Positions 49,197-50,839 of a stretch of 64,000 nt of DNA are shown here, in pieces (the stretch's first letter is position 1; every line of letters starts with the position of its first letter). The notes under the pieces were generated by a model. The model was not told where the DNA came from. It worked only from the letters and a program-made list of their open reading frames with translations, and ran no database searches. The DNA comes from Streptacidiphilus sp. PB12-B1b (GTDB lineage: Bacteria > Actinomycetota > Actinomycetes > Streptomycetales > Streptomycetaceae), in the NCBI RefSeq assembly GCF_014084125.1, contig NZ_CP048405.1:6820001-6884000 (forward strand), in the 5' to 3' direction. The translations under genes and the position numbers were made by a program.

Positions 49197-49308
49197 AGGG
49201 CGGCCTTCCGGCGGTGCGGTGGGGGTTGACGAAGCTGCCTCCATGGTACCGGCCGCCCGGGTGAACGCCCGCCGGTGGTCGGCGGGCGCCCCGGCGGGCA
49301 GCGCCTGG

Positions 49309-49623
49309 TCAGGCGCGGCCCCGGCAGAGCTGCAGCAGTTGCATGGCCACCTCGGTGCCCTGGGGGCCGAGCGCGGAGCGGTAGCGGGCGAGGATCTCCA
49401 GCTCGCGGGAGAGCGCGAGTCGGGTGCCGCCGCTGCCGATCCGGGCGGCCTGGACCTCGGCCGAGACCGCCATCCGCTGCTGGACCAGGTCCAGGATGCG
49501 CCGGTCGAGGTCGTCGATCCGGCTCCGGGCGCCGGCGATGACGGCGGCCGGGTCGGTCGGGGCGGCGGCCGGGTCGGTCAGAGCAAGGGTCGGGGCGGGG
49601 GCGGCGGGGGTGCTGGTGGTCAT
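49309..49623 (-). CDS. Chorismate mutase, AroQ class
   Basis: 104 residues. An AroQ-type helical chorismate mutase: [20 protein letters not shown] with the conserved Arg, [27 protein letters not shown]. It makes prephenate from chorismate on the way to Phe and Tyr. An alanine/proline-rich N-terminus of about 25 residues precedes the fold. The ATG at 49623 has AGGGAGA. A perfect terminator hairpin lies 41 bp upstream, and beyond it a possible 23-codon peptide. Confidence 0.88.
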
Positions 49624-49664
49624 GGGGTCTCCCTGGTGGTCGGCGGGCCGACCCGGGGAGACGA

Positions 49665-49700
49665 CACGGCGCCCCGGGCCGAGTGGCCCGGGGCGCCGTG
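49665..49700. terminator. Perfect 16-bp terminator between the small peptide and chorismate mutase
   Basis: CACGGCGCCCCGGGCC pairs with 49685-49700 over a 4-nt GAGT loop. Read on the minus strand it lies 18 nt after the stop of the tiny frame at 49719-49790 and 41 nt before the chorismate mutase start, so it is an attenuator candidate or the end of a separate small transcript. Confidence 0.85.
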
Positions 49701-49718
49701 CGATGCCTGTTCGTGGGT

Positions 49719-49790
49719 TCAGCAGGCGGCATCACCATGGCAACCGGAGCCTCCGGTGCCATAGGTAAAGACGTACGCCGTGGTGAACAT
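49719..49790 (-). CDS. Putative 23-residue leader peptide or small peptide
   Basis: The minus-strand frame reads MFTTAYVFTYGTGG, then SGCHGDAAC and a stop. It is rich in aromatic residues early (F, Y, F, Y) with two cysteines at the end, and uses codons rare in this genome (TTT, TAT, CAT, GAT). A bulged hairpin (ATGGC-ACCGGA-GGC-TCCGGT-GCCAT, about 49737-49763) overlaps its second half, and a perfect terminator follows. TATGCT lies eight bases before the ATG, which suits a leaderless start. Phe/Tyr content ahead of chorismate mutase fits amino-acid attenuation, but I found no clear antiterminator. May not be translated. Confidence 0.4.
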   Translation of the reverse strand: MFTTAYVFTYGTGGSGCHGDAAC

Positions 49791-50839
49791 GGGCGACAGC
49801 ATAGCGCTTCACCCGTTCGGCCCGGGCGCTGCGGCGTGACTCCTCGTCAGCAGAATCGTTGTGCCCGATGACCGTGCAGGGTTCATGTCTCCGCCAGGGA
49901 CGTGCGCCGGCCCCAGCTCGTCGGGGGTTCCGTACGGCAGGCAGGACCACGCGTGGAGTGTGCAGGACAGTCCGCCGATGCGATGAGACGTGCCGTACTG
50001 CGGCCCGTCGTGGGACCTCGTGTCGACGCTGTGACCGGACAGCAGGGGACAGCGGCCCGGTTGCGACTGACGTGAGGGGGTGGATCGGAGCCGGGGACGC
50101 CGGGTTCCGCTCCACCCCTGATCGTCTCCCCTGCCTGTAATCGTCCGTGGCTGATCGTCCCCGACGGTCCGGGCCCCGGGCGCGTGCCCGGCGCGCGCGG
50201 TTTCCGCACTACCGACGGTGCGTCCTTGCGGAGCGTGACAGCCACCCACCTGCACCTACCGCCTCCCGGGCCCGCCCGCCCGCTTCGCGCCGAAAAAACG
50301 ACTATGCCGATCTCGGCCGAACTGCTTGCGGAGAACGGTGCGTATCCCCCACGATTGCTGGTAGAGGGGGTGGACCAGAGGCACCGCGGAGCAGAGCCGG
50401 TCACCGCTTCCGCCCGGACGATCCCCGTGCGAGCGGCTCGCCCACGTCATCACACTGAGTGACAGCGACCGACCGCCGTGCGTGCTGCCACGTCCAGGGG
50501 GGCGCACAAGGTCCGCGCGCGCCCCGGGTATGTCCCACCTCCTCCGGCGTCGGGCCGACCCACGACCCGCCCCCGAACCGACCGACGAACGGCGCCCTCC
50601 CCCTGGTGCCGTTTCCCGCAGCACCGGCGCAGCCCTGGCGCCGTGTGCGTGCAAGGCAGAGGGCCCCGTCTTCCCCCGCGGGGCCCTCTGGCCATGGCAG
50701 CGCGCCCGCGGACATGACACCGCCCGCGGCGACGGTGGTTCGTCGGCGCGGGCGGGTTCTGATCGGGAACTTATCTGTGTTGACCGCTCGATGACGGAGA
50801 TTCACGCGAATGTGACGCGCGCCTCACACAGATGTGTCC
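49791..50839. other. Gene-poor intergenic kilobase
   Basis: Several open frames exist, but none has a ribosome site with GC-rich third codon positions. A frame from ATG 50304 to 50462 was checked and has far too many A/T third bases. On the minus strand a short hairpin GCCGA-GA-TCGGC is followed by ATAGTCG and six T (about 50290-50316), unusual here and a possible intrinsic terminator. A 12-bp terminator lies at 50657-50690. An unannotated small RNA could lie between, but I cannot show it. Confidence 0.4.
50657..50690. terminator. Terminator downstream of the GMC oxidoreductase gene
   Basis: A perfect 12-bp stem CAGAGGGCCCCG pairs with 50679-50690 over a 10-nt loop, about 150 bp past the stop of the minus-strand gene. 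Confidence 0.75.

Follow-up and report, generated by a model that had tools for sequence, protein, structure and literature searches.

Does the short reading frame that precedes the chorismate mutase gene of Streptacidiphilus sp. PB12-B1b, together with the hairpins around it, regulate that gene in response to aromatic amino acids? Chorismate mutase is the commitment enzyme for phenylalanine and tyrosine, and its product feeds these two amino acids only. The locus lies in a 64,000-nucleotide stretch of DNA (the window), in which a sequence-only reading had proposed an aromatic leader peptide and attenuator. Going back to the sequence confirmed the layout described there: a 23-codon frame on the minus strand (MFTTAYVFTYGTGGSGCHGDAAC; ATG at 49790-49788, stop codon TGA at 49721-49719), an 18-nt gap between the stop codon and a 16-bp terminator hairpin, 41 nt between this hairpin and the chorismate mutase ATG, and the Phe and Tyr codons TTC, TAC, TTT and TAT in the leader frame. 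The identity of the downstream gene was likewise upheld by a match to the NF005894 family above the cut-off (Table 1). GGGAG precedes its ATG (49623). The core DNA motif of the leader is unique in the 7.67-Mb genome, and the 151-nt leader fold has a z score of -5.9. A longer frame, beginning MLSP- (ATG at 49802), was rejected as the leader gene since its own ATG falls within the -10 box TATGCT. Downstream of chorismate mutase, and on the same strand, lies guaA (49244-47592). The two genes are separated by a strong GC hairpin (CGCCCGCCG / CGGCGGGCG) at 49245-49308, and thus may not be co-transcribed.

Table 1. Coordinates of the leader, its RNA elements and the gene that it precedes (window positions).
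Feature	Position	Strand	Basis
-10 promoter box TATGCT, 7 nt upstream of leader ATG	49798-49803	minus	Sequence; conserved in 128 of 130 leaders
Leader peptide frame MFTTAYVFTYGTGGSGCHGDAAC, including stop codon	49719-49790	minus	Sequence and conservation upstream of the same gene
Sensing-core Phe codon TTT	49767-49769	minus	TTT in 128 of 130 leaders
Sensing-core Tyr codon TAT, with bases shared with the opening of the 1:2 hairpin	49761-49763	minus	TAT in 128 of 130 leaders
1:2 (protector) hairpin, within the coding sequence	49736-49763	minus	Folding; compensatory changes across families
Antiterminator 5′ arm (region 2)	49728-49751	minus	Minimum free energy fold of the RNA that a ribosome stalled at TTT/TAT would expose
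Antiterminator 3′ arm (region 3): linker plus terminator 5′ arm	49685-49707	minus	Folds; linker partner swap (0 of 2000)
Terminator hairpin 3:4 (49701-49685 with 49680-49664)	49664-49701	minus	Sequence; loop ACTC
Chorismate mutase, monofunctional AroQ (controlled gene)	49309-49623	minus	NF005894, E = 9.7e-33, 112 bits against a cut-off of 73

Of the 130 aligned leaders, 128 have a -10-type hexamer at a distance of 6 or 7 nt upstream of the start codon (CATACT in 95 of them), and only 4 show a Shine-Dalgarno-like stretch ahead of the start. The position of the -10 box is taken as indicating that the leader would be translated from a leaderless transcript. Such transcripts are common in Streptomyces, making up 17% in S. 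lividans (PMC8079986). A promoter and terminator scan of the window element called neither. Further upstream, at about 49840-49860, lies another conserved block (also in L058-L065), which reads ACAACGATTCTGCTGAC in the window's genus and CGATTCTAACGGG or GATTCTACCGG in others; it may represent an activator site or the -35 region.

The sequence-only reading would have been refuted by a lack of conservation of the peptide, and the peptide proved to be conserved upstream of chorismate mutase across the family. A profile built from 22 leader peptides found a match at E <= 0.1 in 371 of 392 Streptomycetales genomes, most of these matches being far better and well below 1e-4. Within the window's own family, 220 of 298 genomes have this chorismate mutase, and the set of genomes with the peptide is almost identical. 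Most genomes of one genus (g14) are without a chorismate mutase of the NF005894 family, and the profile has no good match in this genus (best E about 0.3 or worse). The few g14 genes that do belong to NF005894 (L162, L167 and L168) lie in different surroundings and carry no leader. Searches of Pfam and NCBIfam profiles with three versions of the leader peptide gave no match, short peptides being weakly covered in these collections; Rfam covariance models, including those for aromatic amino acid leaders and T-boxes, gave no relevant match to the window element at E <= 1.

Within the peptide, the residues F-x-Y-G are nearly invariant, even across families, x being T, S, F, G, I or P. The F-x-Y core provides what is found in attenuators of the trp/phe type, namely a short translatable frame with codons for the end products. 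Both codons of the core are rare: among the long, codon-biased frames of the window, which served as the sole reference, TTT accounts for 1.5% of Phe codons and TAT for 2.8% of Tyr codons. The aligned leaders hold these rare codons at a fixed spacing to the hairpins. An additional Phe or Tyr residue, found two codons upstream of the core (position -2) in 112 of 130 leaders, is always specified by the common codons TTC or TAC. The TTT codon falls outside the stem of the 1:2 hairpin; TAT may be kept partly by RNA pairing rather than by codon choice, as its A and U open that stem. A deviant leader is seen in Streptacidiphilus sp. ASG 303 (L003, 1214-1264), where the sequence HVFTQGAGG has TTC in place of TTT and Gln in place of Tyr. 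The hairpins and the terminator are retained in this strain, making it a possible Phe-only variant.

The 1:2 hairpin begins directly after the Tyr codon. In a set of 18 sequences from several families, 97.8% of cells are paired and 9 cells are changed on both sides against 2.8 expected, with none of 500 shuffles as high; as the sequences were hand-picked as representatives, these values lend support to the hairpin but are not an unbiased estimate. The two-sided changes keep the pairs (C-G to G-C, U-A to C-G). The terminator hairpin (3:4) comprises 16 Watson-Crick base-pairs (49700-49685 with 49680-49665) and one G.U pair, and it stands between leader and gene at a near-constant position in the compared leaders. 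Family-wide, the T content is 35% directly after the terminator versus 7% further on; the window's own tail, CGTCTCCCC, is T-poor and has no good U-run. The peptide that follows F-x-Y reads GTGPSGCHGRAA, GTGWSGCHGRAV, GNRPTGCHGRAA, GTGRSGRHGSS or GTGQPGAIAAA, with the positions of the hairpins unchanged, and C-termini such as GCHGRAA, GAIAAA, CHRSRCTNR and CHGSRGRLR represent differing frames over the same hairpin. Neither of the two cysteines of the window's leader is conserved among relatives. As the C-terminus varies and shifts frame from one lineage to another while the hairpins persist, the conserved entity is the RNA, not the peptide.

No clear antiterminator had been found in the sequence-only reading. 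This verdict was overturned when the folding of the RNA was made to take a stalled ribosome into account: the RNA under a ribosome at TAT was omitted, and the remainder was folded up to the end of the terminator 5′ arm. The window's leader then folds into one extended hairpin (-30.0 kcal/mol) that pairs GGCuCCGGuUGCC...GUGAUGCC with GGCAUCGC..GGCG..CCGGGCC; in the fold without ribosome, the 1:2 hairpin replaces it. With at least 4 of the 7 apical bases required to be paired, 108 of 116 unique leaders give an antiterminator in the stalled fold, as compared with 70% when linkers are shuffled. Among 47 non-redundant leaders (less than 90% alike), 45 form an antiterminator that captures the terminator 5′ arm. 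Swapping the 5′ and 3′ halves between these leaders gives 38.0 ± 2.1, and none of 200 swaps reaches 45. The energy of the stalled fold in the same set averages -28.2 kcal/mol with a leader's own halves and -25.4 ± 0.4 with swapped ones (0 of 200 swaps match). Likewise, the duplex between regions 2 and 3 is stronger with the leader's own partner than with a foreign one, both over the whole region (-24.9 versus -23.8 ± 0.2; 0 of 2000 shuffles) and over the linker part (-10.0 versus -9.0 ± 0.2; 0 of 2000). A control with the 20 nt upstream of the core and the same linker revealed no partner-specific effect. Matched changes are found in individual leaders, as in GGUCCGG:CCGGACC, AACCCGG:CCGGGUU (L117) and GGGUCC:GGACCC (L165). 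The support for the antiterminator comes from whole-molecule folds and partner swaps, procedures that do not fully remove the effect of shared ancestry. In these folds, the antiterminator shares the terminator 5′ arm and competes with the hairpin that the ribosome would cover. It was not recovered by RNAalifold, which returned no consensus structure and no pairs from the 47-leader alignment because the gapped linkers do not align. A column-shuffle test for covariation in the invariant antiterminator core was not significant and is not counted as evidence.

Taken together, conservation, rare codons at fixed distances from the hairpins and the newly found antiterminator support the reading as an aromatic leader peptide and attenuator. 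The leader frame, its rare codons, the -10 box with its spacing, three mutually exclusive predicted hairpins and the conserved placement before chorismate mutase can all be read from the sequence and its comparison with relatives. They correspond to the four regions of a classical attenuator, in which 1:2 is the protector, 2:3 the antiterminator and 3:4 the terminator. The sensing codons lie at the base of 1:2, and the antiterminator holds the leader stop codon in its upper part. Very probably, then, leader and hairpins constitute a ribosome-mediated transcription attenuator that senses the charging of Phe-tRNA and Tyr-tRNA. What takes place in vivo we infer as follows, with Phe, Tyr or both as the signal. 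Transcription by RNA polymerase would begin at the leader ATG or immediately beside it, and the leader would be translated by a ribosome without the help of a Shine-Dalgarno sequence. Upon shortage of charged Phe-tRNA or Tyr-tRNA, the ribosome would stall at one of the two rare codons (TTT or TAT), with the left arm of 1:2 beneath it; region 2, left free, would pair with the linker and the terminator 5′ arm (region 3), the terminator would not form in time, and chorismate mutase would be transcribed. With plentiful charged tRNAs, the ribosome would reach the stop codon and disrupt the antiterminator, allowing the 3:4 terminator to form and transcription to stop before chorismate mutase. In the window, the terminator (-43 kcal/mol) is much stronger than the antiterminator (-30 kcal/mol); therefore, the switch would have to be decided kinetically. 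In ribosome-free folds, 1:2 is the minimum free energy choice in only 41 of 116 leaders, with region 2:3 pairing in many others. This mixed picture suggests that folding order and ribosome position, rather than final energies, set the switch.

Other explanations were considered. Ribosome stalling might be brought about by the nascent FxYG sequence itself, by a drug or by slow rare codons, the leader then acting through an arrest peptide or as a general sensor of translation speed. The near invariance of F-x-Y-G, even across families, would fit such a mechanism, and a precedent exists in mycobacterial whiB7, which is switched by ribosome stalling in its upstream open reading frame (PMC13236596). 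However, x changes and the preceding residues differ between families, the nascent chain at the stall site is only about 8-10 residues long, and the enzyme encoded downstream supplies exactly the precursor of Phe and Tyr; this explanation is unlikely. The product of the small frame might instead be a peptide with bioactivity or a signalling role, such as a RiPP precursor containing cysteines, the terminator merely ending the transcript of the frame. The sequence-only reading had left room for this on account of the two cysteines, and the window peptide is indeed short, with a Gly-rich tail, and the motif YGTGxSGCHG is conserved in many species. Yet the C-terminus in its entirety, Cys and His included, changes or moves into another frame from lineage to lineage with the nucleotide pairing retained, the leader always adjoins chorismate mutase, the window neighbours that were read (chorismate mutase and guaA) encode no modification enzymes, and a constraint on coding alone would leave the rare TTT and TAT codons unexplained. 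We therefore consider a bioactive peptide very unlikely.

One could also envisage a constitutive partial terminator that insulates the gene or sets its level of transcription, preceded by a translated frame devoid of regulatory function. The hairpin is perfect and GC-rich, and such hairpins are frequent in these genomes. Moreover, in S. coelicolor, mutating the regulatory codons of a similar-looking leader, that of ilvB, had no effect (PMC1262725), a result that counts against the attenuator reading. Nevertheless, a constitutive terminator would account neither for invariant rare aromatic codons at a fixed spacing nor for the conserved 1:2 hairpin and the partner specificity of regions 2 and 3, and it appears very improbable.

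A well-known counterpart of the attenuator proposed here is the pheL-pheA system of E. coli (Rfam Phe_leader, RF01859), where a leader with Phe codons and competing hairpins controls a chorismate mutase-prephenate dehydratase. The two are alike in the Phe-codon leader, in the competing hairpins and in the chorismate mutase activity under control. Unlike the window element, pheL-pheA is gammaproteobacterial, responds to Phe only, is led by a Shine-Dalgarno sequence and ends in a U-rich terminator. Closer in phylogeny is the aroR leader of C. glutamicum, which has clustered Phe-Tyr-Phe codons and precedes aroF; ribosome-mediated attenuation by this leader is credited to Neshat et al. 2014 in PMC11802643. 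It resembles the present case as an actinobacterial leader with Phe and Tyr codons at an aromatic amino acid gene, and differs in that aroR controls DAHP synthase, whereas the window leader would control chorismate mutase. The aroF leader is reported to respond to limitation for Phe and not for Tyr (PMC11802643); hence, the Tyr codon in the present leader is no proof of Tyr sensing. Leaders in the same bacterial family are known from the Streptomyces trp, leu, ilv, ala, thr and met genes, most of them leaderless short frames followed by hairpins (PMC1262725, PMC8079986). They share this architecture with the window element and serve other amino acids. No chorismate mutase leader is given in either paper, the second of which lists eight leader peptides from S. 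lividans RNA-seq, and the 2005 survey reported no conserved RNA element or structure for Phe or Tyr operons in Actinobacteria (PMC1262725). A search of open full-text literature found no description of the attenuator proposed here. Thus, the mechanism has long been known, and the present example of it appears, provisionally, to be undescribed in the open texts covered by the search.

Similar leaders precede chorismate mutase beyond the window's family. Within Streptomycetales, they read MLANRRFFYGYGPGS... and MSSRARRFSYGHRIVPAG... in one family (f3) and MRQAAFRFSYGFRNRSG... in another (f2); for L158 of the latter, folding did not recover capture of the terminator arm under a stalled ribosome. 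In a further family (f6, L174-L197; probably Mycobacteriaceae), 18 of 24 loci have QRRFFYGYRPAVPVV or a similar sequence before chorismate mutase, in a short frame ending with RRFFYGYRPAVPVV or the like; a motif search revealed no leader in the other 6. In this family, FFYG is followed by a hairpin of 8-11 bp, and the gene is usually preceded by a terminator-like one, L179 and L182 being among the few in which the terminator is degenerate. Single loci in four more families (f43, f18, f32 and f34) carry AKFFYGN, LRFFYGG, RFFYGYRPP and RFFYYGTG. Of 20 chorismate mutase loci belonging to other families within the class, 15, including most of those of f18, showed no F-x-Y-G leader, one of the 15 (L222) having a looser FFYA frame. 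In the representatives of the other families that were folded, the core is followed by a hairpin, and several again show capture of the terminator arm in the stalled fold. Common descent of the leaders across families is likely. That a single ancient chorismate mutase attenuator extends across much of Actinomycetia (Streptomycetales, the Mycobacteriaceae-like family, where the copy would be unannotated, and at least three further families), its rare F-x-Y codons co-reading Phe and Tyr charging so that either shortage releases the enzyme, is a possibility that we rate a little short of probable.

The attenuator proposed here would fill, for a branch-point enzyme, the gap left by the 2005 survey (PMC1262725), and would do so among bacteria that produce many antibiotics derived from aromatic compounds. 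Its antiterminator is sufficiently well defined for tests with single-codon and compensatory mutations, and the leader and terminator offer a defined target for raising the flux towards Phe and Tyr. Finally, the occurrence of comparable leaders in other parts of the class suggests a regulon that is old and has been overlooked.
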